Assembly (NCBI GenBank): GCA_945861775.1
Contig: CAMAVT010000005.1
Location: forward strand, 1-35,616
Length of the DNA stretch: 35,616 bases
DNA from: Bifidobacterium breve
Lineage (GTDB): Bacteria; Actinomycetota; Actinomycetes; S36-B12
Direction: 5' to 3'
The notes below the pieces were generated by a model that was not told the origin of the DNA, did not search any database, and saw nothing but the letters and a program-made list of their open reading frames with translations. The position numbers and the translations under genes were made by a program. Positions 8,535 to 35,584 of the stretch are shown here, one piece after another; position 1 is the stretch's first letter; each line of letters opens with the position of its first letter.

Positions 8535-8709
8535 GGGGTAAAAATAGTGTACAAATCAACACAGATTTCAACTTTTAAACATGGTGACCAAAAATGGTCG
8601 AATCCTCGATGCAGCCACCGATGTATGGGTGAAGCGATCAGATGCCATAATGCGAAAGCAACAATGTAGTTTTTGTTACACTTGTCGTTAAATGTCAATA
8701 AACTAGAAG

Positions 8710-13425: not shown

Positions 13426-13768
13426 CCTGAATTTCCTTGAAAGAAACTAGTACCTGATTCGTGGATCAAGAGCGGGCCAGGAAGTAGTTCGCCCTGTCAT
13501 TTCAATTAATTGCTCATCGCTCACCCGAGAAAAACCATTATTTTGTGTCACAATGACAGAAATTGATGGGGGTTGTTGCGTCGGAAAAACTGACTTTTGG
13601 TGAAATCACTCAGAGGGAGCTTCGATGGCTTGGGGCTGGATCACTTCCCAGTCGTGGCCACATTGGGATCTTGACATTACTAGTGTTGAACTCTCAAATA
13701 GGAGAACTAAATCCTCACTATTGGGCTACGACGAATTGCAAGCGTGGAATCCTGAACACCCGCGCATG

Positions 13769-13834
13769 ACGGTCGGATCGGTTGCGAGTGCAATCGCGCA
13801 CCACTCGAAAAGCCCGATTCTGCTGGTGCGTGAT
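13769..13834 (+). pseudogene. Possible universal stress protein C-terminal remnant
   Basis: 'VGSVASAIAHHSKSPILLVRD' resembles the C-terminal G-S-V/T-x-x-A-h-x-H-x-x-x-P-h-L-h-V-R end of UspA proteins. The sequence upstream in frame does not look like the rest of that fold. Confidence 0.4.
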
Positions 13835-14039
13835 CGGAGCGAGGACGAAGAAACAGTCTGAGGGTGCCTAGTTTCACAAGGCAATTCCAGTGAGAACAAC
13901 GGAGGTTCGAATTCTTATGGGCTCGCTTCCCGCTAGGTCTACAAAAAAGTGGGAGTCGTCACCAGGTAATTCCCTGAACTCGTTTGTTGGCAAATTTTCA
14001 AATCTGTGAACGAAAGCTAAGTACTTTCGTAGATTAACG

Positions 14040-14058
14040 TGTCCCGCTTGACGGGAAG
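14040..14058 (+). promoter_or_regulatory. Candidate IclR-type operator C (TGTCCCGC-TTG-ACGGGAAG)
   Basis: Imperfect inverted repeat upstream of the aldehyde dehydrogenase; contains the reverse complement of GCGGGACA. Confidence 0.45.
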
Positions 14059-14069
14059 ACCTAAGTGTT

Positions 14070-14088
14070 TGATTCGCATAGCGGGACA
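14070..14088 (+). promoter_or_regulatory. Candidate IclR-type operator D (TGATTCGC-ATA-GCGGGACA)
   Basis: Exact GCGGGACA half-site, 30 bp from site C. Confidence 0.45.
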
Positions 14089-14107
14089 TACACGGCAGAC
14101 TTAGCAG

Positions 14108-15538: not shown

Positions 15539-16184
15539 GGTGTTCGGCGGCTTGATCGAATACCCTTCCAGGGTTTGTCACTTCAAGGAGAAGGCTCATT
15601 AATCCGGCTTCCGCGCCACCCTTCACGTATGTGGGGTTGTCGTCAATAAAAACAATCTCAGAAGCTGAAAGTCCCATTGCCTCAATTGCAATGTTGTAAG
15701 CACGAATGTCTGGTTTGCGGATCTCAATTTCTGACGAATCAATGATTATGTCAAACAGGGGGAACCACTCTTGTGATTCAACCCAGTTGCGACCTTGGAA
15801 GTCCATTAACTCGTTTGTGAGAATCCCTAAGCGAATCCCAGCATCCTTGACTCGATGAACCAGATCCAATGCTTCGGGTCGAATGATCTCCAGCCCCGGT
15901 GTTTGGAACATGGCGCGCATGATCGTTGGGTGACCGTCGAGAGGTGCACCGTTTGCCTGCGCTTTAGCCGCAAAGTCCAACCAATACTCCCTTTCGGTGG
16001 CCTCGCCTTCGAGGTACCGCGTCCAGCGTTGATCTTTATCAGGATCAAGTGGACCTCGGCCTACAACGGTGCCTGCGGGTAATCCGCGGGCAATTTCGTA
16101 GTCGTCCGCGATTTCCCACGCTGATTTAAAGAAGACGACACCGACATCAAGGAGTAGGCCTTTGGCATATTGGGAGTTGTTCAC
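15528..16184 (-). CDS. HAD-superfamily hydrolase
   Basis: 218 aa: 'LLLDVGVVFF' (motif I, DxG form), 'LGILTNELMDF' (motif II), 'IRKPDIRAYNIA' (motif III), 'IVFIDDNPTYV' (motif IV). Confidence 0.75.
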   Translation of the reverse strand: MNNSQYAKGLLLDVGVVFFKSAWEIADDYEIARGLPAGTVVGRGPLDPDKDQRWTRYLEGEATEREYWLDFAAKAQANGAPLDGHPTIMRAMFQTPGLEIIRPEALDLVHRVKDAGIRLGILTNELMDFQGRNWVESQEWFPLFDIIIDSSEIEIRKPDIRAYNIAIEAMGLSASEIVFIDDNPTYVKGGAEAGLMSLLLEVTNPGRVFDQAAEHLNV

Positions 16185-16567
16185 AGGGAAACCTCATCTC
16201 TTACGTCCTCGCCGCGAGCGCTTGCGAGTAAAATTTCACGCAGACTTTTTGCAGTGGTGGGTTCGGGCAGGTCAATTTCAATCCATCCAGCACGAACTTG
16301 AGTGGGATAGGTAGTAAGAACGGTATTAGGGTCACCTTGTTTTTGCCCTGTTGCTAGATCGAACCGCCAGAAGTGACCCGGGCAGGTGATACACCCTTCT
16401 TTGGCTACCCCGCCGCTCAATAACGTTCCATTGTGTGGGCACACGTTGGTTACAGCATGGAGTTCACCGTCTGTGCGCGAGACCAGAACATGGCGTGCGT
16501 CAACGCGGATACCAATAAATGAGTTGTCAGTTAATTCTGCATTCCGCAGGGCTTGGTGCCATGGCAT
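16181..16567 (-). CDS. Rieske [2Fe-2S] ferredoxin
   Basis: 128 aa with 'NVCPHNGTLLSGG...CITCPGHFWRFDLATGQ', i.e. the CxH...CxxH cluster ligands. Confidence 0.85.
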   Translation of the reverse strand: MPWHQALRNAELTDNSFIGIRVDARHVLVSRTDGELHAVTNVCPHNGTLLSGGVAKEGCITCPGHFWRFDLATGQKQGDPNTVLTTYPTQVRAGWIEIDLPEPTTAKSLREILLASARGEDVRDEVSL

Positions 16568-16821: not shown

Positions 16822-17607
16822 CTAAATGCAGGAAACTTCAATTGAACCGAGTTGATCAAATCGAGCGGTGATGCTGTCGCCGGGTTCAACGGCGACCGCT
16901 TCGGTCAGTGCGCCAGAAAGCACAATGTGCCCTGCCTTTAATCCTTCGCCGCGAGCCGCTAGTTTGCGAACCAACCACGCAACACTGGCTGCTGGGTGAC
17001 CAAGGACTGCGGCACCAGAAGCAGTGGCAACCAACTTCCCGTTCTTTTCAAATGTGCAACCAAGTGTTCGAAGATCTAGTGAATCGATGCCCACAACCAC
17101 GCCTCCGAGGGTGAATCCAGCGGAGGAGGAATTATCGGCCGCGACATCGGGCAATGTGAATGAATATCCGGCAAAACGTGAATCAAGGATGTCCACTGCA
17201 GCGAATACAAACTGAGTGGCCGCCAAAACGTGGACGGCTGAGATATGAATACCGGACAAATCTTCACCGAGAATAAATGCGATCTCTGGTTCGCAACGAG
17301 GCTGAATAAATTTATTGCAGACTAGTGGAGCGCCCGTGTCAATCTGCATGTCATTGGTGAGCCAACCGTATAGCGGTTCGGAAACATTCATTTGCTTTTG
17401 CTTTGCGACACTTGTCAATCCAAGTTTTGCACCAACAACAACATTGCCCTGATCGATTCTTGCCTGTACCACTTCAGCTTGAATGTCGTAGGCGGCATCA
17501 ACCGTGAGATCGGGAAAGTCACCGGTTAACGCTGTGGTGGCGACTCGGTTTGCAGCGGCATCAATGAGGCGCTGAGCTTGGGGTGTGGGTGTTCTCGAGC
17601 TTGTCAT
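16822..17607 (-). CDS. 4-Oxalocrotonate (2-oxo-3-hexenedioate) decarboxylase-like
   Basis: 'GAKLGLTSVAKQKQMNVSEPLYGWLTNDM', 'EPEIAFILG', 'VLAATQFVFAAVDILDSRFAGYSFTLPDVAADNSSSAGF', which resembles the DmpH/XylI side of the MhpD superfamily. Confidence 0.8.
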   Translation of the reverse strand: MTSSRTPTPQAQRLIDAAANRVATTALTGDFPDLTVDAAYDIQAEVVQARIDQGNVVVGAKLGLTSVAKQKQMNVSEPLYGWLTNDMQIDTGAPLVCNKFIQPRCEPEIAFILGEDLSGIHISAVHVLAATQFVFAAVDILDSRFAGYSFTLPDVAADNSSSAGFTLGGVVVGIDSLDLRTLGCTFEKNGKLVATASGAAVLGHPAASVAWLVRKLAARGEGLKAGHIVLSGALTEAVAVEPGDSITARFDQLGSIEVSCI

Positions 17608-18629
17608 TTCTTTTCTGCCTCCGCGTGCTTCTTTGCCAAATCAAGGGCAACATCGATAATCATGTCCTCTTGGCCACCAACAACCTTGCGCCGGCCAAGT
17701 TCAAGCAGGATTTCAGCTTGCGACACGTTGTAGCGTTCTGCTGCTCTCTGTGAGTGCAGAAGGAACGACCCGTATACCCCGGCGTATCCGAGTATGAGTC
17801 CAGCTCGGTCAATCACCTGTTGACGTGGCATAAGTGGCCGAACAATTTCCTCGGCGACATCCATGAGTGCCAATACATTTACTCCAGTAGTAATTCCATA
17901 TTTGTCCGAAACGGCTGCCAGAATCTCAGTCGGACAGTTGCCAGCACCGGCACCTAACCCAGCAGAAGTACCATCGAGGTTGGTGGCGCCTTCTTCGTAT
18001 GCTGCAATGGAATTTGCAACCGCCATGGATAGATTGTTGTGTGCGTGAACACCAACGGGTACGTCCAGTGCATTCACGAGCGCGTTGACTCGCCTACGAA
18101 CATCTTCGGTGGTCATGGCGCCCGCAGAGTCCGCAAAATAGATCGCGTCAGCACCATACGACTGCATCTTGAGTGCTTCCTCAACAAGGCCTTCTGGACT
18201 GTTCATGTGTGCCATCATCATGAAACCAATTGTTTCCATGCCTAGTGACTTAGAAGTTTTTATGTGTTGCTCGCTAATGTCGGCCTCGGTACAGTGCGTC
18301 GCGATTCGTGCCATTCCGACACCGAGTTCTTTGACATCTCTGAGGTCATCCGCTAATCCGATACCGGGTAGAAGCAGGCAAGCGATTTTTGCGTTGGTTG
18401 TGGCTGCGCATGCCTGGGCAATAAGTTCCTTCTCGTCCACTTTGGAGAACCCGTAATTAAAACTAGATCCCCCAAGACCGTCGCCGTGAGCAATTTCGAT
18501 TACTTGAACACCGGCGTGATCCAGGCCTTTGACGATCGCAATAACTTCTTCGGGGTTGTACTGGTGGCTGATTGCGTGTGAGCCATCACGCAGCGTCGAG
18601 TCAATTAACCGAAAGTCTGGTGTTGTCAT
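17604..18629 (-). CDS. 4-Hydroxy-2-oxovalerate aldolase
   Basis: '[53 protein letters not shown]', '[16 protein letters not shown]', '[12 protein letters not shown]', characteristic of MhpE/DmpG. Confidence 0.95.
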
Positions 18630-19537
18630 GCGGTTGCCTCCCTACTGGCTCGTGAAATCGCAATCGCTTCACCGACACGCATGGCTGCGGCAGTCATGAT
18701 GTCCAGATTCCCTGCATATTCGGGCAGGTAATCGCCTGCGCCTTCAACTTCAAGAAGAACGACAGCGCGATGCGGGACGACTCCACCGGGTGTGTGGAAG
18801 GGTCCCTCTTCAATCACCGGCTCATTCTTCAATCGATAACCCGGTACGTACTTGGAAACCTCCCCGGCCATTTCATGAATGGAGTTGAGGATGGCCGCGT
18901 GATCGGCGCCCTCCGGAATCCCCGCGAAGACAGTGTTGCGCATCATGATCGGGGGCTCGGCTGGATTGAGCACCATAATTGCCTTGCTTTTGGTAGCACC
19001 ACCGATTTCGCGTAATGCGGTAGAGGTCGTCTTGGTGAATTCATCAATATTTTGTCGGGTTCCGGGACCGGCAGATTTTGATGCAACCGTAGAAATCATT
19101 TCGGCGTAAGGGAGTTCGTCGATTACCCGGCGAATCGCGTAAACCATCGGAGTTGTTGCCTGGCCGCCACAGGTCACCAAGTTGACATTTGGTGCATCTA
19201 AGTGTTCATAGAGATTCACGGGTGGAATGACCTTTGGGCCACGTGCGGCAGGGGTCAAATCAATTGCGGTAATTCCGGCCGCCGCGTACTGCTTGTAATG
19301 TCGAACATGAACGTAGGCACTGGTTGCATCAAAAATCATATCTATGTCGCTGGCATTTTCGAGAACCCAATCAGGCCCGGTGTGTGGTGCTTGAATCCCG
19401 TTTTTTCTTGCTCGGGCTAGACCGTCGCTGTCAGGATCGATCCCCACGAGTGCGACGAGATCTAGGACATCGCTACGGAGCATTTTCACCATCAGGTCGG
19501 TCCCAATATTGCCAGAACCTATGATCGCGCATCTCAT
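18626..19537 (-). CDS. Acetaldehyde dehydrogenase (acylating)
   Basis: '[19 protein letters not shown]', '[18 protein letters not shown]' (catalytic Cys), adjacent to the aldolase, as in MhpF/DmpF. Confidence 0.95.
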
Positions 19538-19563: not shown

Positions 19564-20355
19564 TTATTCAGATATTCTGAGTGTTAGTGAACCGAGGTGG
19601 GAAAATTCCGCTCTGAAGACATCGCCTGGTGCGATGGGGCACATTGCATGCAGTGCACCCGTCATGATCACGCTTCCAGCAGGGAGAGTGACCCCCAGTG
19701 GCGCCAGTGTGTTTGCTAGCCAAGCAACGGCATTTAGGGGACCACCAAGTGCCGCTGCGCCGGCACCGGTTGCAGTTATGTCTCCATTCTTTGTAAACAA
19801 CATTCCAATAAGACGTGGATCACATTCATCAATAGGAATGACCGTGCTACTCAATGCGATTGCACCGCTGCTGGCCAAGTCGGCAACCGTGTCGGCAATT
19901 TTGATGCGCCAATCAATAATTCGAGAGTCAACAATCTCAATCGCTGCAATTAATCCAGCGGTTGCTTGATATGCCGTGGCTGCGGTGCAGTTGGGACCTG
20001 AAAGGTCGGCTCCCAAAACCACGGCTATTTCCGCTTCAACGCGAGGGGCAATGAAATCACTGACCGAGACCGTTGCTCCGTCACCGTAAATGGTCGACGC
20101 GAATATTGGCCCAAAATCCGGCTGGTCAACCCCTAGAAGATTTTGCATGGGTAAGGACGTCAGCCCCAACTTGTAGCCGGAAATTTTTTCACCCTTTGCA
20201 AGCAACATTGCCACAAGTTCTTGTTGTATGGCGTACCCGTCTGCAACACCCAGCTCTGGATCACTACCCGTAAATGGTTCTATCGGAGTGAGTGAAGTCC
20301 TGGCATCGAGTAGTTGCCGAGCCATATTTTTGGCCTGTTCTTCAGTGATTTTCAC
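19564..20355 (-). CDS. 2-Oxopent-4-enoate hydratase-like
   Basis: 'GYKLGLTSLPMQNLLGVDQPDFGPIFASTIYGDG', 'RVEAEIAVVLG', 'AIEIVDSRIIDWRIKIADTVADLASSG', typical of the MhpD/DmpE hydratase side of the superfamily. Confidence 0.85.
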   Translation of the reverse strand: MKITEEQAKNMARQLLDARTSLTPIEPFTGSDPELGVADGYAIQQELVAMLLAKGEKISGYKLGLTSLPMQNLLGVDQPDFGPIFASTIYGDGATVSVSDFIAPRVEAEIAVVLGADLSGPNCTAATAYQATAGLIAAIEIVDSRIIDWRIKIADTVADLASSGAIALSSTVIPIDECDPRLIGMLFTKNGDITATGAGAAALGGPLNAVAWLANTLAPLGVTLPAGSVIMTGALHAMCPIAPGDVFRAEFSHLGSLTLRISE

Positions 20356-21155
20356 GATTGCCTTCCTTTGGGTTTTTCGTGGTAACCCAGTCGACGACTA
20401 ATTGCCACGCCAGCCTCAACACAGGGGCGCGCGAATCTTTTCATAGAGTCACCGGAAACTCGTTGCAGTGGCCCAGCGACGGACACGGCCGCAATTACCT
20501 CACCCATACCGTTTCGAATCGGGGCCGCAACGGATGCGACACCCATTTCGGATTCGTTTATGTTTTCAGCCCACCCTCGCTTACGAATTTCACTTAGTTC
20601 AGCCCGCAATGAATTGAGTTGCGTAATTGTGTGTGGGGTGTGTGGCTTGAGTTTCCAATCCTTCAAAGTTGCTTCAAGCGTGTGTGGGGTTAACGCTGCC
20701 AATAACAGTTTTCCAGTACTCGTGCAGTGAGCATCATTTCGGTATCCAACGCGTCCAAACAGACGAAGAGTTTGTGGGCTCTCCCGTCTCTCGATATAAA
20801 CGACTTCGCGCCCGTCAAGCACGGCCACCTGAACTGTTTCCTTTGTGGCATTGCGCAACTGATCGATCACGGGACTGCAGGCCTCATGTAAGTCGGCGTG
20901 CAATGCGACCGAGGCTCCGAGTTCGTACATGACTAAGCCGAGTCGGTAGGCACCCGTGTGGGGATCCTGATCTAAAATTCCCTCAGCGGCAAGGGTATTC
21001 ACTAATCGATGAGCGGTGCTTTTGCCTATTCCCAACCGCCGAGAAAGTTCGGTTACACCAATATCTCGGTTCCCCTTGGAGTATTCCTTAAGTAGGCGCG
21101 CTGCATTTTGCACACTCGAAAGTGTGGAATGGGAGCGCCTTGCTGGTTCGGTCAT
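20352..21155 (-). CDS. IclR-family transcriptional regulator
   Basis: N-terminal wHTH 'IGVTELSRRLGIGKSTAHRLVNTLAAEGILDQDP' and IclR effector-domain features 'CTSTGKLLLAAL', 'GWAENINESEMGVASVAAPIRN'. Confidence 0.95.
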   Translation of the reverse strand: MTEPARRSHSTLSSVQNAARLLKEYSKGNRDIGVTELSRRLGIGKSTAHRLVNTLAAEGILDQDPHTGAYRLGLVMYELGASVALHADLHEACSPVIDQLRNATKETVQVAVLDGREVVYIERRESPQTLRLFGRVGYRNDAHCTSTGKLLLAALTPHTLEATLKDWKLKPHTPHTITQLNSLRAELSEIRKRGWAENINESEMGVASVAAPIRNGMGEVIAAVSVAGPLQRVSGDSMKRFARPCVEAGVAISRRLGYHEKPKGRQS

Positions 21156-21156
21156 T

Positions 21157-21828
21157 TCAATTTCCCCGCAATGCTTTGATGAGGGCTTTGCGCACTACCG
21201 TGAAATCTTGGGAGTCGATTTCGAGTTGAGGCAAGATCTCGCGTGCAAGTAACGTGTGAGCATTTGGTAAACCATTGACGAATGCTGAATTCATTTCAAA
21301 AACGAGTTCATTTCGGTGCGGTGACAATGCCAAGATTGTGTCAAAGTCTCGGATTGCCGCGGCGTGTGAATGCGCGAGACCGGTTCCGGCGTGATGGGCG
21401 TGATGCTCACTAAGCCCACCACCGGGGGGAATGCTGAGGTGGTAAACGGTTGAGCGAATACCGAGGGCATCTTGGATCCGCGCCGTCTCAGGAGAATCCA
21501 ACTGTTGAGTAAGGCCAAGTTCAGGAATGACCGTTGGGTCAAAAAACCGCAGTTTCCACTGCAATTCGCCAACACTGTCATTAACGACCACCTCGTGTCC
21601 CCGTGGCGCAGGTAGGTTCTCCGTTGTGCCAATGATGTGAAGGTTTTGGGCGCCAACGGCTGCAACGGTGAATTCCGTTGTCGAATAAAGGGGGAGGCGA
21701 CTGCGATCAGCAGGGGCAAGTGACTCCGAAGCCTCGAGATAAGCCTGATGTGTTGCCTTCACGTACGCAGCCATGGCAGCCCGCATGTCCTCGGGCGCTG
21801 GCGCACTGGATTCGGAATCAATCCTCAT
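21157..21828 (-). CDS. Conserved-looking protein of unknown function, His-rich motif
   Basis: ORF 21157..21849 with likely start MRIDSESSAP. First gene of the minus-strand operon. Motif 'GGGLSEHHAHHAGTGLAHSHAAAI'. Confidence 0.65.
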   Translation of the reverse strand: MRIDSESSAPAPEDMRAAMAAYVKATHQAYLEASESLAPADRSRLPLYSTTEFTVAAVGAQNLHIIGTTENLPAPRGHEVVVNDSVGELQWKLRFFDPTVIPELGLTQQLDSPETARIQDALGIRSTVYHLSIPPGGGLSEHHAHHAGTGLAHSHAAAIRDFDTILALSPHRNELVFEMNSAFVNGLPNAHTLLAREILPQLEIDSQDFTVVRKALIKALRGN

Positions 21829-21850
21829 GGAAACGCACGCTAGCAGCAAG

Positions 21851-21963: not shown

Positions 21964-22872
21964 ATGGGTTTACAGCGTTTGGCACACGTAGATGTCATCG
22001 TCACAGATCTGGATCTGGCGACCGCCTATTACACGGAAGTTATTGGGATGCTCGAAACCGAGCGTGATGCCAATTCCGTTTACTTGAAATGTTGGGATGA
22101 ACCCAATCACCACTCACTTCGGCTTATTTATGGTCCCCGGGTTGGTTTCGAGCAAATGTCCTTCAAAGTGGATCGAGAGGATGATCTTGGCGAATTTGAA
22201 AACAAGGTCACCAAGTACGGGTACCCCGTGCGTCGGGTGTCAAAAGGTGATCATGTGGGTCAAGGAGAATCAATTCGATTTGAAACACCTTCGGGTCAGA
22301 TCATGGAACTCGTCTACGACATTGAGCACGTTGGACGAGCAACCTCGTCAGTCAATCCGTCTTTGACGGTTGAAGGGCTTAAAGGAATTGCACCGCCACG
22401 GCTGGACCACGTGTTGGTGACGGCTGAAGAAGTGGGTGATTCCGCGAAATTTTTTGAGGACGTGTTTGGTTTCCGCACCACCGAGCAACTACTTGATGGC
22501 CAAGGCCACCAATCTGCAGTGTGGATGGAGGTCTCACATAGCCCTCATGATTTAGCAATTGTGACGGGCAAAAATGGTGGGCTGCATCATTTTGCGTGGT
22601 GGTTGGATGACTGGGATCACATCCGCCGTTCAGCTGATGTCCTGGCTTATAACGGTATTCAAATTGATGTTGGCCCAACCAGGCACGGCATTACTCGTGG
22701 AAACACAATCTATTTCTTCGACCCACTGGGAACTCGCAATGAAGTTTTTACCGGTGGATATCGCCCTGACCCTGATTTCCCCACCATCACCTGGACCGAA
22801 GATCAAATTGGGCGTGCAATTTTTTACTACGAAGGCGAACTAAACCAGCGATTCATGAACGTTCACACCTAA
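21964..22872 (+). CDS. Extradiol (catechol 2,3-) dioxygenase, type I VOC superfamily
   Basis: Two-domain VOC protein; metal-ligand regions 'RLDHVLVTAEEVG', 'LHHFAWWLDDW', 'RNEVFTGGY'. Confidence 0.9.
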   Translation: MGLQRLAHVDVIVTDLDLATAYYTEVIGMLETERDANSVYLKCWDEPNHHSLRLIYGPRVGFEQMSFKVDREDDLGEFENKVTKYGYPVRRVSKGDHVGQGESIRFETPSGQIMELVYDIEHVGRATSSVNPSLTVEGLKGIAPPRLDHVLVTAEEVGDSAKFFEDVFGFRTTEQLLDGQGHQSAVWMEVSHSPHDLAIVTGKNGGLHHFAWWLDDWDHIRRSADVLAYNGIQIDVGPTRHGITRGNTIYFFDPLGTRNEVFTGGYRPDPDFPTITWTEDQIGRAIFYYEGELNQRFMNVHT

Positions 22873-22887
22873 GACAGGACTCGGTAC

Positions 22888-23799
22888 ATGGCAATTTTGC
22901 GGTTATCGCACGTTGAGATTCGGGTTCCCGATCTCGAGTTAGCTACGGCTTATTACAGTGAAGTGGTTGGCATGTTCGAAACAGATCGCGAGGGCGATCG
23001 TGTTTACCTTAAGTGCTGGGATGAACATCAGCATCACTCGGTTGTTTTGCACAGCGCCCCGACTTACGGACTTGTTCGCATGGGCTGGAAGTTGGAATTT
23101 GCCCAAGATCTTGATTACTACCAAAGCAAATTGGAGGAGGCCGGTGTCGCCGTTCTCCGGGTGTCCCGAGATGGGGCAGGCCCAGGTGGTGGCGAGTCCA
23201 TCCGCTTCGAGTTGCCTAGTGGCCACGAAATGGAATTAATGTATGGAATGGATCAAGTGGGTAATTTACTGCCGCTCACAAATCCACCACCCAAACCTTT
23301 AGGTCTTGTCGGAATCGCACCGCCTCGCATCGACCACATCTTTTTAACATGTGAAGACGTCGGCGGTAACACGAAATTCCTGCAAGAAGTCCTCGGTTTT
23401 CACTTGACCGAACAAGTAATGGGTGACGACGGCTTTCAAGTAGCCACCTGGTTGGAGCACTCAAACCAATCACACGACATCGCGCTCGTAACCGGACAAA
23501 ACCGAGGACTTCACCATTTCGCTTATTACGTTGAGGACTGGAGTGCCATCCGTGATGCTGCTGACGTCCTCGCGTATCACGGTGTAAACATCGAGACGAA
23601 TCCAACACGTCACGGAGCAACGCGCGGTCACTGCCTCTACTTCTTCGACCCCGCTGGAAATCGCAATGAAACTTTTACCGGTGGGTACTACGTAGACCAC
23701 GACGAACCTCCCATCACATGGACAGAAGCTGAAATGGGACGTGCAATTTTCTACTACGACGGCGTTGTGAACCAAAAGTTCCTGACGGTGCACAGTTAG
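22888..23799 (+). CDS. Second extradiol (catechol 2,3-) dioxygenase, type I VOC superfamily
   Basis: Paralogue of the preceding ORF; 'RIDHIFLTCEDVG', 'LHHFAYYVEDW', 'RNETFTGGYYV'. Confidence 0.9.
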   Translation: MAILRLSHVEIRVPDLELATAYYSEVVGMFETDREGDRVYLKCWDEHQHHSVVLHSAPTYGLVRMGWKLEFAQDLDYYQSKLEEAGVAVLRVSRDGAGPGGGESIRFELPSGHEMELMYGMDQVGNLLPLTNPPPKPLGLVGIAPPRIDHIFLTCEDVGGNTKFLQEVLGFHLTEQVMGDDGFQVATWLEHSNQSHDIALVTGQNRGLHHFAYYVEDWSAIRDAADVLAYHGVNIETNPTRHGATRGHCLYFFDPAGNRNETFTGGYYVDHDEPPITWTEAEMGRAIFYYDGVVNQKFLTVHS

Positions 23800-23807
23800 G
23801 AGATGCA

Positions 23808-24962
23808 GTGACCACATCAGAGTCAACCCATGACGTCAATAACCGTGAAGTTGACGGCCAAGTGCCGCAGTCAACGAGAGCGCCACTTCCGCGTATGGAG
23901 CGGACCGATCCTCCGGGCTACCTGCAGCGGTATCGGGAACGCGAGGCAGCCAACACGGTCACGCCTTCGGCTGAATCTCTGGATTTAGAACGAACTGAAT
24001 CAACCCCGCTATATCTGCGCCGGTTCCGTGACCGGATAAGCGGTGCGAATGCACTGGAGCAGCGCTTGCCTTTATGGGAGGGGCAGGACCTAGGAGTCAC
24101 CAACGCTTACTCGCAAATCACTAAGACCAAGGAAATAGTTCCTGAATCAGAGGAACAAATTGGAGCCACCCTCACCACGCAGGTGCACATTATCCGCCAC
24201 GGTGAAACACAGGGATACTCAACCGAGAGTGGATTAACGCCGCTCGGCAGTTGGCAGGTTCACCGACGCGGCTTCGACATCAGCAAAGGAATCAAGCAGG
24301 GTGAACGTATCCGGATTGTTTGTGCGGATACGAATCGGGCTCGCCAAACCGCAGAAGGAATTCGAAAGGGACTTCTTGATGGCCTGACCATGTGGGACCG
24401 AACCGCCGAGATCAGTGAAGTCACGGCAATGGAAGAGTTTAGAAATTTTCAAGTGTGGACTCCGGAGGGCCTCCGCGATGTCACGGGTGCCTTCCGACTC
24501 TACAAAAAAGAAATGGAAAAGTACCAGCGCGTGGCTCAGGGCGACCGGCCAACGTGGCTGGTCGAAATGGATCGGTTCTGGAGCACTCAGGCGGGGGGCG
24601 CCGACCCCATCACATTGTGGATTCAAATCCCCATGCTGAATTTCGAGCCACCGTCCGCAACCGTCCGCAGATTTTGGGCTGGGATTCAACGGATTATGGC
24701 CGAATATCCCGGTGAACGGATCATCGTCGGCACGCATTCCGGCCCGATTCGGGTCTTCGCTATCAGTGCATTTGGTTACGACCCAGGGGAGCCGTACAAC
24801 ACGGAAGAAGTAATTGTCCGCATGATGTCAAAAAATTCCGCGTTTATTGCATATCGAAATCGAGTTCAGGAAGTAATGGTGCCGGATCTCGATCAACTCC
24901 CAGATTGGTGGGCAGGCCTGAGTGGCCGAGCTCTTCCAACAGTATTACGAGGGAAGGAGTAG
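23808..24962 (+). CDS. Histidine phosphatase superfamily protein with a long N-terminal extension
   Basis: 'VHIIRHGETQGYSTESGLTPLGSWQ' (RHG motif), 'ADTNRARQTAEGI', 'IIVGTHSGPIRVFA' (second catalytic His). About 125 aa precede the catalytic domain. Confidence 0.85.
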   Translation: MTTSESTHDVNNREVDGQVPQSTRAPLPRMERTDPPGYLQRYREREAANTVTPSAESLDLERTESTPLYLRRFRDRISGANALEQRLPLWEGQDLGVTNAYSQITKTKEIVPESEEQIGATLTTQVHIIRHGETQGYSTESGLTPLGSWQVHRRGFDISKGIKQGERIRIVCADTNRARQTAEGIRKGLLDGLTMWDRTAEISEVTAMEEFRNFQVWTPEGLRDVTGAFRLYKKEMEKYQRVAQGDRPTWLVEMDRFWSTQAGGADPITLWIQIPMLNFEPPSATVRRFWAGIQRIMAEYPGERIIVGTHSGPIRVFAISAFGYDPGEPYNTEEVIVRMMSKNSAFIAYRNRVQEVMVPDLDQLPDWWAGLSGRALPTVLRGKE

Positions 24963-24968
24963 AGAACC

Positions 24969-26048
24969 ATGTCAGAAAATATCGTGTGGTTTGAAGGCTA
25001 CTGGAAAGGGCTTAAAGGTGAAGTTGGTGGGAAGGGAGCCAGTCTCGGTGAGATGACGGGCGCTGGGTTACCAGTACCACCCGGTTTCACACTGACCTGT
25101 ACCGCTTACCGAAAGAGTAAAGAGCAAAGTTCGCTTGACGAAGATATTGCCCGACTGCTTTACGAACTCGATACCGACGACACTGACATGGTTTCTGATC
25201 GTTGTAAGCAAATCAGGGCTGCATTTGGTGAGATGGCAATGGCTGATCAAGTTGAATCAGATTTACGTGAGGCCTATGCGGAACTGTGCCGCCAATCGAA
25301 TTCGGAGGACGTACCCGTGGCGGTTCGATCCTCAGCGACAAGTGAAGATTCACCCGACGCTTCTTTTGCCGGAGAACACGATACCTTCCTATGGGTCAAG
25401 GGCGCGGACGCTGTCATCGATGCAGTCCGCAAGTGTTGGGCGAGTTTATTCACGGATAGGGCAACCTGCTACCGAGTCAAGATGGGATACGAGCACCGGT
25501 CAGTGGAAATGAGCGTCGTTATTCAAAAAATGGTGCGGCCAATTTCAGCAGGTGTGGCATTTACTCTGAATCCAATCAATGGTGACAGGTCACAAGTTTG
25601 TATTGACTCAGCCTGGGGTTTTGGTGAGGCGGTTGTTTCGGGTGAGGTAACCCCGGACAACTACTTGATTGACAAAGTCTTAATGGAAATTGGACAGCGA
25701 AAGATCTCCATTAAGGAAATGGAATTTAGTCTCAGTGACCACGAAACTGTGGAGAGAGCGGAACTAGATGAAGAACGCGCCAAGTCACCAAGTTTGACCG
25801 ACGCGCAAATTCGTGCAATCGCGGTGCTTGCGAAAGCCGCAGAGAAGCACTATGCCTGCCCACAAGATATTGAGTGGGCCGTGGACGCAGACCTGGATGA
25901 CGGCAAAAATGTCGTTTTACTTCAGGCTCGACCAGAAACTGTCTGGAGCAAGAAAACCTCAAGTGCAACAGGCAGTGTTCAATCCTCGGGAGATTTCATG
26001 GCAAGCATTGTCTCCACACTAATGAATCCACTTCACACCAAAAAATAA
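24969..26048 (+). CDS. Stand-alone PEP-synthase/PPDK N-terminal (ATP-grasp) subunit, putative aryl phosphotransferase subunit (PpsB/CreI/HpeI type)
   Basis: 'GGKGASLGEMTGAGLPVPPGFTLT', 'VPVAVRSSATSEDSPDASFAGEHDTFLWV', 'GVAFTLNPINGD', 'AWGFGEAVVSGEVTPDNYLID', 'DIEWAVD...VVLLQARPET'. No swivel domain. Confidence 0.9.
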   Translation: MSENIVWFEGYWKGLKGEVGGKGASLGEMTGAGLPVPPGFTLTCTAYRKSKEQSSLDEDIARLLYELDTDDTDMVSDRCKQIRAAFGEMAMADQVESDLREAYAELCRQSNSEDVPVAVRSSATSEDSPDASFAGEHDTFLWVKGADAVIDAVRKCWASLFTDRATCYRVKMGYEHRSVEMSVVIQKMVRPISAGVAFTLNPINGDRSQVCIDSAWGFGEAVVSGEVTPDNYLIDKVLMEIGQRKISIKEMEFSLSDHETVERAELDEERAKSPSLTDAQIRAIAVLAKAAEKHYACPQDIEWAVDADLDDGKNVVLLQARPETVWSKKTSSATGSVQSSGDFMASIVSTLMNPLHTKK

Positions 26049-26084
26049 TCGTATTTAGACGCGGTTACCGCGAGAGGAAATCAC

Positions 26085-27896
26085 ATGGCCAATCGTTTTC
26101 CAAGCCCATTCGACATTGAGACACCTGAAGGTGCCGAGGGCTGGCAAGAGATGTACATATATTCGTCGTTGTTCTCTGAGAATCGACGTGAATTCGAAGA
26201 CTCAATGTTTTGGTTTCAGGACGGTGTTCACTGGCCAAATGTCATGACTCCCTGGGATGCAACGTTCTTTGAGTACGCCCTCGCGTCACTGTCTCAATAC
26301 AACTCCCGTCATTTGCAGGTGCCACCCGCTGACGGCATTGCGTTCCGGATCCTCAATGGCTACGGCTACCTGAGCCCGGTCCCTGCTGACCCGGCAAAAA
26401 TCGAAGAGCGCGTTGCAAACTTCACTGATCGTGCAGGCCACTACTTCATGAATTGGGATGATCTATATTCCAATTGGATGGTCAAGATCCGTGATCTCGT
26501 TGGTGAACTTGAGGCTATTGAGTTCGCAGCGTTACCCGATGTAGAAGATGCTGAGAGGGTAGTTAAGTCCGGTGCCGGTGTGGGTTCTGGGTATCAGATT
26601 CAGGAAAATTATGTGCGACTCACAAGTTTGGCACTCAAGCTGTGGAATTATCACTTTGAATTTCTTAATCTCGGATACGCGGCTTATCTTGATTTCTTTA
26701 TGTTCTGCAAGACTGTATTCCCAAGCATCGCCGATCAGTCAATCGCAAAAATGGTTGCCGGAGTAGATGTGGATCTCTTCCGACCGGACGATGAACTCAA
26801 GCGTCTCGCTCGCAAAGCAGTTGATAGCGGCGTTGCTGAGGCATTTTCAGCAGGTGATGTTGACGCGACTTGTGAAATTCTGAAGTCAAGTGCTGATGGC
26901 CAAGCTTGGATTGCATCCTTTGAGGAATCAGCTGAGCCTTGGTTTAATTTTTCGACCGGTTCCGGTTTCTACCACCGCGACAAGATTTGGATCGAGAATA
27001 TCGAGATCCCATTCGAGTTCATCCGTAGTTACATTCAAAATCTCAAAGATGGCAAAGATCTCAACCGACCGGTAGAAGCAATTCGTGTTGAACGAGATCG
27101 GATTGTTAATGAATACATGGGATATCTGTTAACGGATGAGGACCGCGAGACATTCCAAGGCAAACTTGGACTAGCGCGTACAGTTTTCCCCTACGTTGAG
27201 AACCATAATTTCTACGTCGAGCACTGGGCTCACTCGGTGATTTGGCGCAAGATGCGTGAACTTGGTGCGATTATGGTCAAGGAAGGTTTCTGGAGCGAAC
27301 CCGATGACATCTTTTACCTCAAGCGCACTGAAGTTGAGGAAATGCTGTGGGACTACTTCGTGTCGTGGGCGACGCCGGAAGCGCCAGCGGGACCGGGGTA
27401 CTGGCCACCGATCATTGCCGATCGTCGTCGAAAGTGTGCTGCACTTGCCAAATGGAAGCCCATTCCAGGGCTCGGTGTGCCACCGGAGGTTGTTACCGAA
27501 CCATTCACGGTCATGCTGTGGGGAATCACCTCAGACAGTGTGAATGCTTGGCTCGGTGGTGGAGACCAGATTGAAGGTGAACTCCGAGGTATGGCCGCTT
27601 CCCCGGGTAATGTTGAGGGTCTTGCTCGAGTCATTTTCTCCCCCGAAGACATTAGCCAAATCCAAGAGGGCGAAATTCTGGTAGCTCCGGTGACAGCACC
27701 AAGTTGGGCGCCCATTTTTGGAAAAATTCAGGCGACGGTCACTGACTCTGGCGGAATGATGAGTCATGCGGCAATTGTCTGTCGTGAATACGGTCTTCCA
27801 GCGGTCACCGGAACGGGTTTCGCAACGGCCAAAATCCAAACGGGTATGCGTATTCGGGTGGATGGCAATAATGGCGTTGTCACAATTCTGGATTAA
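26085..27896 (+). CDS. PEP-utilising-enzyme mobile-domain protein, putative aryl phosphotransferase catalytic subunit (PpsA/CreH/HpeH type)
   Basis: 603 aa with C-terminal phospho-His swivel domain 'GMAASPGNVEGLARVIFSPEDISQIQEGEILVAPVTAPSWAPIF..TDSGGMMSHAAIVCREYGLPAVTG'. No ATP-grasp domain; adjacent to the ATP-grasp ORF. Confidence 0.85.
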   Translation: MANRFPSPFDIETPEGAEGWQEMYIYSSLFSENRREFEDSMFWFQDGVHWPNVMTPWDATFFEYALASLSQYNSRHLQVPPADGIAFRILNGYGYLSPVPADPAKIEERVANFTDRAGHYFMNWDDLYSNWMVKIRDLVGELEAIEFAALPDVEDAERVVKSGAGVGSGYQIQENYVRLTSLALKLWNYHFEFLNLGYAAYLDFFMFCKTVFPSIADQSIAKMVAGVDVDLFRPDDELKRLARKAVDSGVAEAFSAGDVDATCEILKSSADGQAWIASFEESAEPWFNFSTGSGFYHRDKIWIENIEIPFEFIRSYIQNLKDGKDLNRPVEAIRVERDRIVNEYMGYLLTDEDRETFQGKLGLARTVFPYVENHNFYVEHWAHSVIWRKMRELGAIMVKEGFWSEPDDIFYLKRTEVEEMLWDYFVSWATPEAPAGPGYWPPIIADRRRKCAALAKWKPIPGLGVPPEVVTEPFTVMLWGITSDSVNAWLGGGDQIEGELRGMAASPGNVEGLARVIFSPEDISQIQEGEILVAPVTAPSWAPIFGKIQATVTDSGGMMSHAAIVCREYGLPAVTGTGFATAKIQTGMRIRVDGNNGVVTILD

Positions 27897-27913
27897 CCGG
27901 TAGTACCGAATGG

Positions 27914-27964
27914 GGCTCCTCGGTTCCCGCGGGCGGGACAAAATACTTGCCGTTCGCAGGAGCC
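27914..27964 (+). other. Intergenic nested inverted repeats (GGCTCCT...AGGAGCC enclosing TCCCGC-GG-GCGGGA)
   Basis: Seen directly: GGCTCCT at 27914-27920 and AGGAGCC at 27958-27964; GCGGGACA at 27933-27940. Confidence 0.5.
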
Positions 27965-28042
27965 GGGGTGCACCATTAGGGTTGGATAGTAGTTGCCCTA
28001 CAAGCATTTTTCATTTTTATCAGTTATATTTTCAGGGGAGGA

Positions 28043-29308
28043 ATGACCATGTTGACCGTAGAGCAAAACGAGGAACTTACCTCAGTAGGCCCAGGCACAC
28101 CCATGGGCGAACTCCTGCGTCGCTACTGGTACCCCATTGCATTTGAGCAGGACTTCGACTCCGTGCTTACCAAAACGGTTCGCTTGCTCGGTGAAAACTG
28201 GACTCTGTTTAAGACCCCAAAAAGCGGGCGTTACGGCATCGTTGCAGAGCACTGCCCGCACCGTCGAGCGTCACTGACTTACGGTGTGGTGCACGAGGAC
28301 GGTATCCGCTGCGGTTACCACGGTTGGAAATTCGATTTTGATGGCCAGTGTGTGGAGCAGCCCGCTGAAACTGATAATCAGAATTTCCGCGACCGGGTGC
28401 AGCAGAAGGCGGGTAAGGCTCAGACATTAGCCGGAATGGTTTGGGTGTATGTCGGACCGGACCCGGCACCCGAACTCCCGCGCTTTGATGTCTTCGTAAT
28501 GGACGGGATCAAGGATTGCGGCTACACCACCCTGCCGTGCAACTGGCTCCAGATTATGGAGAACTCGGTGGATCCGCACCATGTTGAGTGGCTACATGGT
28601 TACTACTTTGATTTTCTTGGTCAGACCGAGGGTTTTGACGCACCCAAAGCATTCCAAAAAAAGCACATGCGAACTGGTTTCGAAGAAATGGAATGGGGAA
28701 TTCTCAAGCGCCGAGTTCTTGAAGGTGGCACAGAAGAAAATGATGACTGGAAAATCGGTCATCCACTTGTGTTCCCTTATTTCATGCGTGTTGGTGGAGC
28801 CGGAATCAATCAAATGCAAATCCGGGTCCCCATTGATGACACAACTACTTGGAAATTGTTTTTTTCCAATCACGCTCCCAATGGCATTGAAGCACCCAAG
28901 CAGGATCGTCCAGTCTTCTACGAGTATCTGTGGAAGGACGAGAACGGCCGCTTGATCACCGATTACATTGAAGGACAGGACATTATGGCTTGGGTTTCCC
29001 AAGGTCCCATCACGGATCGGAGTCAGGAGCATTTGGGTCGTTCCGACGGCGGTGTTGCCATGCTGCGCAAAATGTTCAAGGAGAACATGAAAAAGGTTGC
29101 CAACGGTGAGGATCCACTGGGAACTGTGCGTGAACCACACGAGCGGATCGATCTGCCGTGTGAGCGCGACAAGTTTGGTGCCGAGCGTGAATTCGCCCAT
29201 GCATGGATCACCACCGGGTCAATGCGTTACAGCCCATTGAAGCAGCAGTTATTGGACTTGCATGAGGATGCATGGGCAGCCAGGGAAAGCGCCGGGACGA
29301 GTGCCTGA
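28043..29308 (+). CDS. Rieske non-heme iron aromatic ring oxygenase / O-demethylase, oxygenase subunit
   Basis: 'AEHCPHRRASLTYGVVHEDGIRCGYHGWKFDFDG' (Rieske ligands) and 'NWLQIMENSVDPHHVEWLHG' (mononuclear iron region). Phthalate-dioxygenase/LigX-type start 'GPGTPMGELLRRYWYPIA'. Confidence 0.9.
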   Translation: MTMLTVEQNEELTSVGPGTPMGELLRRYWYPIAFEQDFDSVLTKTVRLLGENWTLFKTPKSGRYGIVAEHCPHRRASLTYGVVHEDGIRCGYHGWKFDFDGQCVEQPAETDNQNFRDRVQQKAGKAQTLAGMVWVYVGPDPAPELPRFDVFVMDGIKDCGYTTLPCNWLQIMENSVDPHHVEWLHGYYFDFLGQTEGFDAPKAFQKKHMRTGFEEMEWGILKRRVLEGGTEENDDWKIGHPLVFPYFMRVGGAGINQMQIRVPIDDTTTWKLFFSNHAPNGIEAPKQDRPVFYEYLWKDENGRLITDYIEGQDIMAWVSQGPITDRSQEHLGRSDGGVAMLRKMFKENMKKVANGEDPLGTVREPHERIDLPCERDKFGAEREFAHAWITTGSMRYSPLKQQLLDLHEDAWAARESAGTSA

Positions 29309-29324
29309 CTTTGGTAAAGCTGCC

Positions 29325-29621
29325 ATGACGGACGCACCTTTAACCCCAGACGAGCGGAAAGCAGATCTGGCGGCGTTGCCACCGGATCCATACCGACTGC
29401 CGCCCGTGGGTTCGTGGTTTGGACCAGACGCTGAGCGTCACCTGATTGATCGACCCAAGTTCTGCCCGATGTGTGCTGCTGATCTTGAAACGGGTGGCGG
29501 AATAACGACCGAGTATTGGGCTGGTGATCTTCGAGTATTTATGACGTGGTGTGGGGCATGTAGCTGGTTCGGTGAGGTTGTGCGATTCGACATGGTAACT
29601 ATCGAGGAAGAAGAGCATTAG
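29325..29621 (+). CDS. Small zinc-ribbon-like protein
   Basis: ORF 29262..29621 with likely start MTDAPLTPDERK. Two cysteine pairs, 'FCPMCAADL' and 'TWCGACSWF', about 30 residues apart. Confidence 0.65.
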   Translation: MTDAPLTPDERKADLAALPPDPYRLPPVGSWFGPDAERHLIDRPKFCPMCAADLETGGGITTEYWAGDLRVFMTWCGACSWFGEVVRFDMVTIEEEEH

Positions 29622-29654
29622 CGTTTCGGGTCTCGCTTGTAGTTAACGCACCAG

Positions 29655-30320
29655 TTGAAAGGTAGTTCTTTGTCAGCGTTAGTTTTTGATTTTGGCGGCC
29701 CAGTGCTGCTTACACCGTTTGAACTTCGAAAACAGGGTGAGCAAAGATTGGGTCTCCCACCAGGATCGTTTAATTGGGCTGGCCCATTTGACCCAGAATC
29801 AGATGCCGATTGGCAGGCGTTTCAAGCGGGCGAAATGAATGAACGCGAATATTGGAAGCTTCAGGTAGACAGATTCGCTGATCTGGTAGGACATCCTTCC
29901 TCCATGCCCGAAATGATGGCTCCGCTGTATGCCGGACCTGAAAGTGAACTAGTTCGACCAGGTGCGCTTGCACTGTTGAATGACGCGAGGGCCGCGGGTA
30001 TTCCAGTGGGTATGTTGACCAACGATCTGACGGCATTCCATGACGCTGCGTGGATAGAGAGAATGGCCGTTATTAAGTTATTTGACGCAATGGTGGATGG
30101 CAAGCAGGACAGTGTTCATAAACCTGACCCGGAGGCGTATATCTTGATGTGTGCACGGCTAAATGTTCCGTTAGAAGGTACTGTTTTTATAGACGATCAA
30201 CCCGTTAATGTGCGCAGCGCGCAGGCTCTAGGGATGACGGCCATTCACCTAGATCCACGTGACCCAGAACCCGGGTATCAAGCTGCTAGAGCAGCACTGT
30301 CTCTACCGCCCGTGCATTAG
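29655..30320 (+). CDS. HAD-superfamily hydrolase (related to the 15528-16184 product)
   Basis: 'LVFDFGGPVLLTP' (DxG motif I), 'PVGMLTNDLTAFHD', 'HKPDPEAYILM', 'TVFIDDQPVNV'. Shared family pattern 'GPFDPESDADWQAFQAGEMNEREYW' vs 'GPLDPDKDQRWTRYLEGEATEREYW'. Confidence 0.75.
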   Translation: MKGSSLSALVFDFGGPVLLTPFELRKQGEQRLGLPPGSFNWAGPFDPESDADWQAFQAGEMNEREYWKLQVDRFADLVGHPSSMPEMMAPLYAGPESELVRPGALALLNDARAAGIPVGMLTNDLTAFHDAAWIERMAVIKLFDAMVDGKQDSVHKPDPEAYILMCARLNVPLEGTVFIDDQPVNVRSAQALGMTAIHLDPRDPEPGYQAARAALSLPPVH

Positions 30321-33823: not shown

Positions 33824-35584
33824 ATGGCAAACGCGACGCCTAATGGGCAGATCAGCGACGACTGGTGCATCGACAGCGCGAAACTGAGTGAGCGCTTCCC
33901 GATCTATTCGCGCTTTAATGCCAATGACGTATTGCCCGATCCAATTTCACCTTTAGGTGCCGATCTGATTTGGAATCAGCAGATCATGCCGGGATGCGCG
34001 AACGGCTATGCCGAATTGGGTGCGATAACTGCTGCTGAGGCACATCTTGACCCAGAGGCGTACCCCGCAGCGGCATTTCGATACGGGCATATGTACGTCA
34101 GTGTTACGACAGCCCGACTGATGGGTATCCGTGCTGGACTTGGTTGGGAGGCGATTGACGCGGCATTCTTTGGCAGCCACCCTGATGCGCCACCGCATGA
34201 AATGCACCCAACCGATGGTGACCCCGCGTTGTCGGCTCGGTTGGCTGCGCGTACCGAGTGGACGTTAACCACGACTTCGTTTCCCGAGTTAGAGGAAGAC
34301 ACCCGGATCGCAGATCGGTTACGCGCCCAGCGCCCGGACTTCAGTGAAATGTCGAATGCGGCCCTGGTGGCTTATGCCCGAAGTCTGGCTCCCTATGAAC
34401 GCATGACGTGGCGCGGAGAGGTAATTGCCAGCGCTCAATCTGCGGTCGGACCGGCCGTTATCGGTTCTGTTTTGCCCGCTGACTCAGGTATTTCACCGTT
34501 CAACCTGGTGGGTCCGCCAGGTGATGTTGTGTCGGCTGCTCCTTCTTATGCGTTGTGGGATTTGTCCCGCATTGTTCGCAATGACACCGCGCTTAGTGCA
34601 CTTTTTGATGCTGGCATCGTGGGCATAGTGCCTGTGCTTAAAGACAAGCACCCCGACTTTCACCAGAAACTGCAGGTCTTCTTGCGCGAGTTCGGTTACC
34701 GCGGTCCATCAGAGTGGGACTTGGGAGCGGACTCGTGGGAGACACGGCCTGAGTTGCCGTTGGGTCTTGTCGACCGGATGCGTCAACTCTCTGATGACCA
34801 ATCACCAGCGTCGCGACGCGGTGAAGCAAGCGCGGCCGCTGAAGCATTAGTTGCCAGCATCGTTGAGAGCCTGGCCGGAAATGATGAAGCGTTAGGCACC
34901 TTGCGCATGGGTCTTGATTCAGCACGCAGGTTCGCTGGTTGGCGTGAATTAGGTAAGAGCAACTGCATCAAGGTAATCAATGAAGCCCGCGTAGCGCTGC
35001 TCGAAATGGGTCGTCGCCTAACAAGTGAAGGTCACTTCACCCATCCGCGACAAATATTTATGGCACTCGATGGTGAACTGGATCGACTCGTTCTTCAACC
35101 TGATCTCGTGACCCCCGCAATTGCTCAGCGTGAAGCGGACTGGAAGGAATACGCCGACCTAGACGTGCCGTTGTTCCTTGATGCGCGCGTACCCAGAGTT
35201 CCGATTGCGCAACTTAATCGGGTATCTAATGAGAAATTTTTTGTTGCTTCGGTGGGCGACACTTTGACCGGCATAGCCGCTGCCCCCGGCAAAGCAACGG
35301 GTCGGGCTCGAATCATCACTGACACCGCGGAGATTGCAGCTTTTGAGCCCGGTGATGTACTTGTTGCCCCGCAGACCGATCCGTCATGGACACCACTGTT
35401 TGTCGTAGCCAGCGCCGTTGTTGTGGGTGTAGGTGCACCAAATAGTCACGCGATGATCGTTAGCCGCGAACTCGGTATTCCGTGCGTTGCCAGCCTGGAG
35501 GGTGCAATCCACAAAATTCCCGAAGGGGCAATCATTACTGTTGACGGTTCCACTGGAAGCGTCACCATCGATTCACTTGCCTAA
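33824..35584 (+). CDS. Second PEP-utilising-enzyme mobile-domain protein, without ATP-grasp domain
   Basis: 586 aa; 'NDVLPDPISPLG' and 'FGYRGPSEWDLGADSWETRPE' resemble the middle region of rifampin-phosphotransferase/PEP-synthase-like proteins. C-terminal swivel 'GIAAAPGKATGRARIITDTAEIAAFEPGDVLVAPQTDPSWTPLF...GAPNSHAMIVSRELGIPCVAS'. Confidence 0.85.
   Translation: MANATPNGQISDDWCIDSAKLSERFPIYSRFNANDVLPDPISPLGADLIWNQQIMPGCANGYAELGAITAAEAHLDPEAYPAAAFRYGHMYVSVTTARLMGIRAGLGWEAIDAAFFGSHPDAPPHEMHPTDGDPALSARLAARTEWTLTTTSFPELEEDTRIADRLRAQRPDFSEMSNAALVAYARSLAPYERMTWRGEVIASAQSAVGPAVIGSVLPADSGISPFNLVGPPGDVVSAAPSYALWDLSRIVRNDTALSALFDAGIVGIVPVLKDKHPDFHQKLQVFLREFGYRGPSEWDLGADSWETRPELPLGLVDRMRQLSDDQSPASRRGEASAAAEALVASIVESLAGNDEALGTLRMGLDSARRFAGWRELGKSNCIKVINEARVALLEMGRRLTSEGHFTHPRQIFMALDGELDRLVLQPDLVTPAIAQREADWKEYADLDVPLFLDARVPRVPIAQLNRVSNEKFFVASVGDTLTGIAAAPGKATGRARIITDTAEIAAFEPGDVLVAPQTDPSWTPLFVVASAVVVGVGAPNSHAMIVSRELGIPCVASLEGAIHKIPEGAIITVDGSTGSVTIDSLA

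Follow-up and report, generated by a model that had tools for sequence, protein, structure and literature searches.

A candidate phosphorylation-initiated route for aerobic phenol degradation in an actinobacterial meta-cleavage gene cluster

Background

Textbook aerobic phenol degradation begins with a flavin or diiron hydroxylase. Phenols are also phosphorylated by two-component kinases: in PpsAB, CreHI and HpeHI, ATP phosphorylates a swivel histidine, and the phosphate then passes to the phenol. The Pps enzyme of Thauera and Aromatoleum works anaerobically and feeds the UbiD-type carboxylase Ppc. The Cre pathway for 4-cresol in Corynebacterium glutamicum is aerobic; its P450 acts on the methyl group of the phosphorylated compound, and it has an HD-domain phosphatase candidate and an aldehyde oxidation. 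In the Hpe pathway for hydroxyphenylethanones of Rhodococcus rhodochrous GD02, a biotin enzyme carboxylates the phosphorylated intermediate, and a phosphatase acts later (PMC12167813, PMC9618137). Here we analyze a 35,616-nucleotide stretch of Bifidobacterium breve DNA (GTDB lineage Actinomycetes; S36-B12; assembly GCA_945861775.1, contig CAMAVT010000005.1), called the window below, in which a pair of this kinase type is encoded next to a Rieske oxygenase and two catechol 2,3-dioxygenases. The block that contains these genes probably specifies an aerobic route that starts with phosphorylation and degrades a simple phenol, with phenol and/or a cresol as the likeliest substrate.

All three described systems share the two-component kinase with this block. 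Cre is the nearest (about 52% identity in PpsA to the Cre-type loci L042 and L043) and is likewise aerobic, with an oxygenase that follows phosphorylation, a phosphatase and, in some loci, a toluene-4-monooxygenase as partner. However, the oxygenase here is a Rieske enzyme, the phosphatase belongs to the histidine phosphatases, and catechol 2,3-dioxygenases follow; the Cre markers taken from L042 (CreJ-type P450, ferredoxin, reductase and SDR) are absent beside the kinase in Rieske-type loci. Pps has about 48% PpsA identity (Azoarcus KH32C locus L044), and Hpe (Hpe-type locus L047) has the same type of swivel motif, but its kinases lie on a different branch. As an initial sequence-only reading of the window (the original prediction) had stated, no UbiD-type or biotin-dependent carboxylase is present among the annotated genes of the window, and neither PpcA/PpcB nor biotin-dependent carboxylase markers occur in the neighborhoods of Rieske-type loci. 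That reading also suggested that the combination may be undescribed. A literature search that left out preprints and most subscription papers agrees with this: it returned Pps, Cre and Hpe, and no report in which a phenol kinase and a Rieske oxygenase are combined. At L085 and L090, a Cre-type cluster and an Hpe-type carboxylase cluster are no more than 20 kb apart.

The kinase pair

The kinase genes and a phosphatase gene are consecutive on the plus strand, with intergenic gaps of 6 and 36 bases:

23808..24962, plus strand: histidine phosphatase, branch 1, 384 amino acids, candidate phosphate remover; PF00300 (His_Phos_1), 48 bits
24969..26048, plus strand: ATP-grasp subunit, PpsB/CreI/HpeI-like, 359 amino acids; PF01326 (PPDK_N), 374 bits, with no other Pfam domain; in the tree with Cre and Pps
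26085..27896, plus strand: substrate-binding/swivel subunit, PpsA/CreH/HpeH-like, 603 amino acids, swivel histidine H561; PF00391, family match, motif and tree

Coordinates and Pfam matches bear out the three co-directional open reading frames of the original prediction, which had also likened their sizes and split point to PpsB and PpsA. Separate subunits of about 360 and 600 amino acids encoded by neighboring genes characterize the two-component dikinases, and the sizes found here are nearly equal to those of the Pps-type pair. The PEP (phosphoenolpyruvate)-utilizers mobile domain (PF00391) occupies residues 526-597 at the C terminus of the 603-residue protein. Its swivel motif, TDSGGMMSH, conforms to T/SXXGGXXXH and ends in the catalytic histidine H561; a methionine replaces the threonine at the regulatory position of PEP synthase, and a serine precedes the histidine, as in PpsA and CreH. 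Both the motif and these methionine and serine features have been reported for phenol kinases (PMC12167813). The GGxxxH portion is invariant in the alignment of the PpsA-like family.

It is very improbable that the pair is instead a split PEP synthase or an antibiotic phosphotransferase. The best-scoring profiles of the ATP-grasp subunit are indeed those of PEP synthase, but they span just that domain. The 603-residue protein matches PRK08296, an NCBIfam hypothetical subfamily that corresponds to the two-component family, over its full length with 823 bits, versus 107.6 bits for rifampin phosphotransferase (RPH) and 103.4 bits for PEP synthase, which cover the swivel part only. Both subunit trees agree with this result. 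Their references are Cre-like loci with a P450, Pps-Ppc loci and Hpe-like loci from plasmids and genomes, so that close relatives with diagnostic neighbors stand in for the original CreHI, PpsAB and HpeHI. In the PpsA tree, the kinases found in Rieske context make up a separate clade (SH-aLRT support of 94 when locus L059 is included and 98 for the other 31 rows), and the Cre kinases are its sister group. In the PpsB tree, which includes RPH and PEP synthase rows, the Rieske group has a support of 98 and its union with Cre 96, and PEP synthase and RPH fall outside. Both subunits therefore lie inside the phenol-kinase group, which settles the phylogenetic test posed by the original prediction and fits the likeness it saw to CreHI and HpeHI; on these scores and trees we reject the PEP synthase and antibiotic kinase identities. 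Motif, family match and phylogeny thus support a two-component phenol kinase of predicted function.

Within the PpsA tree, the relatives from the order of the host group closely with a Nanopelagicales locus (L075), so the host is probably related to Candidatus Nanopelagicales. Three loci labelled as having no Rieske gene (L038, L061 and L082) run out at or close to the end of a contig. Another clade of two-component kinases (L112, L113, L119, L122 and L125) has no P450, UbiD, biotin carboxylase or Rieske markers nearby.

A conserved gene block

The original prediction was confined to the three genes at 23808-27896. These genes hold, but their unit is larger: a co-directional block runs from 21964 to 30320 in the order catechol 2,3-dioxygenase, catechol 2,3-dioxygenase, phosphatase, PpsB, PpsA, Rieske oxygenase, orf119 and HAD-like protein. 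Its remaining members are:

21964..22872, plus strand: catechol 2,3-dioxygenase 1, 302 amino acids; TIGR03211, 361.6 bits (cut-off 320.2); conserved in the block
22888..23799, plus strand: catechol 2,3-dioxygenase 2, 303 amino acids; TIGR03211, 358.8 bits (cut-off 320.2); conserved in the block
28043..29308, plus strand: Rieske oxygenase, 421 amino acids, phthalate-dioxygenase-like, candidate aryl-phosphate hydroxylase; PF00355 and PF19301
29325..29621, plus strand: orf119 (likely start 29325), small CxxC...CxxC protein; no Pfam match; after the Rieske gene in most block loci
29655..30320, plus strand: HAD-like protein (HAD2), final gene of the conserved block; PF00702, DFGG motif

Both dioxygenases score above the equivalog cut-off and match catechol enzymes. 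The Rieske and extradiol enzymes that had been noticed near the kinase are confirmed at 28043, 21964 and 22888 and, like the phosphatase, they are conserved partners.

The block is syntenic in relatives from the order of the host and ends there at the HAD gene. When named genomes were scanned with a broad alignment of PpsA, it also turned up in Acidimicrobiia, Nitriliruptorales, Nocardioidaceae, Intrasporangiaceae, one genome of Candidatus Nanopelagicales and two that are labelled Acidobacteria. The carriers include the isolates Nocardioides psychrotolerans CGMCC 1.11156 (L055) and Nostocoides sp. Soil756 (L056). In Nocardioides silvaticus (L065), the kinase and Rieske genes occur together and the catechol 2,3-dioxygenase is elsewhere in the locus. 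Because the same gene order recurs across relatives and named genomes, the arrangement is not due to chance; the search of other genomes that had been proposed as a check therefore gave a positive answer.

All six genes (those for the kinase subunits, the Rieske oxygenase, the phosphatase and both catechol 2,3-dioxygenases) are tightly packed on one strand in each of the 24 complete loci, and those for the second dioxygenase, the phosphatase and PpsB often overlap by 4 bases. In one locus (L060), an additional gene separates the second dioxygenase from the phosphatase. Pairwise distances among the six proteins correlate at 0.73-0.89. Across 168 genomes of the order, a PpsA-like gene is found in 37 and the Rieske gene in 38; 35 have both, 2 only PpsA, 3 only the Rieske gene and 128 neither. 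One of the two PpsA-only genomes, G036, carries a Cre cluster; the other is G108. Kinase and Rieske genes are adjacent and co-directional in all 31 genomes that carry them on the same contig, with gaps of 42-352 bases, and they are on separate contigs in the other 4. The Fisher value for their co-occurrence (3e-30) is inflated by the kinship of these genomes and is overstated for that reason.

The oxygenase and the phosphatase

The oxygenase has the CxH...CxxH cluster motif and the D-x2-H-x4-H iron site of Rieske non-heme iron oxygenases, and the ligands C71, H73, C90, H93, D177, H180, H185 and D325 or D335 are invariant in all members of its family. Its closest solved relatives, by both sequence and fold, are the phthalate and isophthalate dioxygenases of Comamonas testosteroni KF1 (7v25, 7fjl and 9ina; about 27% identity), Rieske oxygenases that work on anionic aromatics (PMC12445078). 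R207 and R244 of phthalate dioxygenase and R234 and H257 of isophthalate dioxygenase are the residues that recognize the substrate carboxylate (PMC12445078). K222, R223, R224 and H240 are invariant in the family alignment of the oxygenase described here, and our guess is that they might contact the phosphate. The catalytic domain of the AlphaFold model is too weak for the pocket to be read.

The histidine phosphatase has the fold of the phosphoglycerate mutase and alpha-ribazole phosphatase type. Its RH motif, R177 and H310 are invariant in the family alignment, and it carries a conserved insert specific to its family. HAD2 was also considered as the main phosphatase. It is doubtful in this role because the second aspartate of its phosphatase motif is missing, the motif reading DFGG.

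A predicted route and its alternatives

In the route that we favor, the ATP-grasp subunit (24969) would charge the swivel subunit (26085) at H561, and the latter would phosphorylate the phenolic hydroxyl group as in PpsAB, CreHI and HpeHI. The Rieske oxygenase (28043) could then hydroxylate this anionic aryl phosphate at the ring position adjacent to the O-phosphate, and the histidine phosphatase (23808) would take the phosphate off the resulting catechol monophosphate. If the oxygenase attacks the phosphate-bearing carbon, then the phosphate might leave by itself. No candidate for a cis-dihydrodiol dehydrogenase was found within the conserved block of the relatives and named genomes, which speaks against a stable cis-dihydrodiol. 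The catechol 2,3-dioxygenases would finally open the ring, and divergently oriented meta-pathway genes would carry the product to pyruvate and acetyl-CoA. Trees and synteny uphold, on genomic evidence, two parts of the route first outlined for this locus: the identity of the kinase, and the conserved Rieske, extradiol and phosphatase partners. The role it gave to a P450 does not hold.

The window is a catechol meta-cleavage gene set without its usual first enzyme, phenol hydroxylase, and most of the tested carriers of the block also lack this enzyme. Ten of 15 block-bearing genomes, some of them incomplete, have no match above cut-off to the multicomponent (PF02332), HpaB-type (PF03241) or flavin (PF07976) phenol hydroxylases; the PF02332 search was controlled with genomes that do match. 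PF03241 matches in G058 and PF07976 in G060. In two loci (L114 and L138), the Rieske-type block runs on, on the same strand, into a toluene-4-monooxygenase-type operon, which in L114 consists of hydroxylase, Rieske ferredoxin and reductase and would supply phenol or p-cresol. Several Cre loci have a similar partner. The lack of phenol hydroxylases in most of these genomes, the L114 operon and the catechol-type ring-cleavage enzymes together point to phenol or cresol over guaiacol as the substrate, without proving it.

A methoxyphenol such as guaiacol would be the substrate of an alternative route: after its phosphorylation, O-demethylation of the aryl phosphate by the Rieske enzyme would give catechol monophosphate, with the phosphatase and meta-cleavage following. 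Its product, catechol, would suit the catechol 2,3-dioxygenase genes, and the Rieske protein matches the C-terminal domain of LigXa and, marginally, that of VanA in Pfam, families that include O-demethylases. However, its closest solved structures are the ring-hydroxylating phthalate and isophthalate dioxygenases rather than VanA- or DdmC-type demethylases, no gene for handling formaldehyde was seen within the conserved block, and the L114 operon yields phenol or cresol, not guaiacol. We regard this route as unlikely. It is also rather improbable that the kinase traps phenol in the cell or has another substrate, with the Rieske enzyme acting on an unphosphorylated compound, so that the genes share an operon and form no single linear pathway. 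The authors of the HpeHI work do propose that phosphorylation may serve trapping, but phosphatase, kinase and Rieske genes occur together in nearly all loci, the dioxygenase, phosphatase and kinase genes often overlap, and in haloarchaea the same kinase type has a second, unrelated Rieske enzyme as its neighbor.

This haloarchaeal arrangement is found on plasmids of Haladaptatus salinisoli, Natribaculum luteum and Natrinema sp. DC36 (L048, L049 and L130), where a PpsA-PpsB pair adjoins an alpha-beta ring-hydroxylating dioxygenase, an aldehyde dehydrogenase and a metallophosphoesterase. The kinases lie on a distant branch of the PpsA tree, and the oxygenase is from another Rieske subfamily. A haem-oxygenase-like protein (PF14518) is encoded directly before PpsB at 8107-8838 of locus L059 and is possibly an exchanged oxygenase. 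An oxygenase that is exchanged while its kinase and phosphatase are kept, as in the haloarchaea and possibly L059, fits a kinase-oxygenase-phosphatase logic. On balance, we lean slightly toward the view that hydroxylation of an aryl-phosphate ring by a Rieske enzyme defines a fourth type of phenol catabolism that begins with phosphorylation, in which kinase, oxygenase and phosphatase replace phenol hydroxylase. On this view, the strategy would have at least two origins, one in actinobacteria, which use a phthalate-type Rieske enzyme, and one in haloarchaea, which use an alpha-beta Rieske dioxygenase.

Several observations weigh against the route through an aryl phosphate and catechol. Its activities, step order, substrate and hydroxylation position are predicted from genes, residues, gene order, co-occurrence and phylogeny, and the counts of kinase and Rieske co-occurrence derive from related genomes. 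Locus L059 has no Rieske gene, though its catechol 2,3-dioxygenase and phosphatase are present. Four of the 15 block-bearing genomes (G027, G043, G055 and G058) do encode a PF02332 enzyme. The general-acid glutamate of the histidine phosphatase is not fixed; a glutamate at the expected place is common in the family and not universal. The carboxylate-binding arginines of the phthalate and isophthalate dioxygenases are unmatched at the aligned positions of the Rieske oxygenase, in a region where the alignment is weak.

Surrounding genes

The genes that flank the block upstream are mostly divergent from it:

21157..21849, minus strand: His-rich protein, 230 amino acids, divergent from the block; no Pfam match; in at least 21 loci
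20352..21155, minus strand: IclR-type regulator; PF01614 and PF09339; conserved
19564..20355, minus strand: 2-oxopent-4-enoate hydratase-like (DmpE); best NCBIfam TIGR03220, 264.6 bits, below cut-off 408.8
18626..19537, minus strand: acetylating acetaldehyde dehydrogenase (DmpF); TIGR03215, 427 bits (cut-off 282)
17604..18629, minus strand: 4-hydroxy-2-oxovalerate aldolase (DmpG); TIGR03217, 503.6 bits (cut-off 286)
16822..17607, minus strand: 2-oxo-3-hexenedioate decarboxylase-like (DmpH); best NCBIfam TIGR03218, 271.8 bits, below cut-off 350.6
16181..16567, minus strand: Rieske ferredoxin, possible electron donor of the oxygenase; PF00355
14108..15538, plus strand: aldehyde dehydrogenase, hydroxymuconic semialdehyde dehydrogenase-like; TIGR02299, 518.5 bits, and TIGR03216, 514.4 bits, both below cut-off

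The catechol 2,3-dioxygenases, the DmpE-, DmpF-, DmpG- and DmpH-like genes and the aldehyde dehydrogenase are common to this locus and the Dmp-type meta pathway, but the phenol hydroxylase usual in the latter is neither in this block nor in most of the block-bearing genomes tested. A second HAD-like protein is encoded on the minus strand among these divergent genes. In L055, an FNR-type gene at 13717-15048 is a candidate for the reductase of the oxygenase. Farther away, at 8710-10878, a 722-residue membrane-like open reading frame has a long Glu-rich low-complexity stretch near its N terminus and no Pfam match.

Downstream of the block are genes for a P450, an epoxide hydrolase and a second swivel protein, none of which belongs to the conserved block. 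The P450 at 31534, named in the original prediction as a possible oxidant of the aryl phosphate, is absent from syntenic loci and is not a conserved partner in the relatives or named genomes; we reject it as a member of the pathway. The second stand-alone swivel protein (33824-35584, 586 amino acids, PF00391) follows the P450, epoxide-hydrolase-like and glyoxalase-like genes. Further swivel proteins of about 590 amino acids are encoded on contigs C26 and C34 of the same genome, and no stand-alone ATP-grasp partner was seen for them.

Implications

Two cultured strains carry the block, so the predicted route is open to experiment. If it is correct, then aryl phosphates would join the substrates of Rieske enzymes, and these genes, usually annotated as PEP-utilizing enzymes, would need a corrected annotation. 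The route would also bear on the question, raised by the authors of the HpeHI work, of why phenols are phosphorylated at all. Many actinobacteria, including those that seem to have no flavin or diiron phenol hydroxylase, would then invest ATP and rely on a Rieske enzyme in its place.

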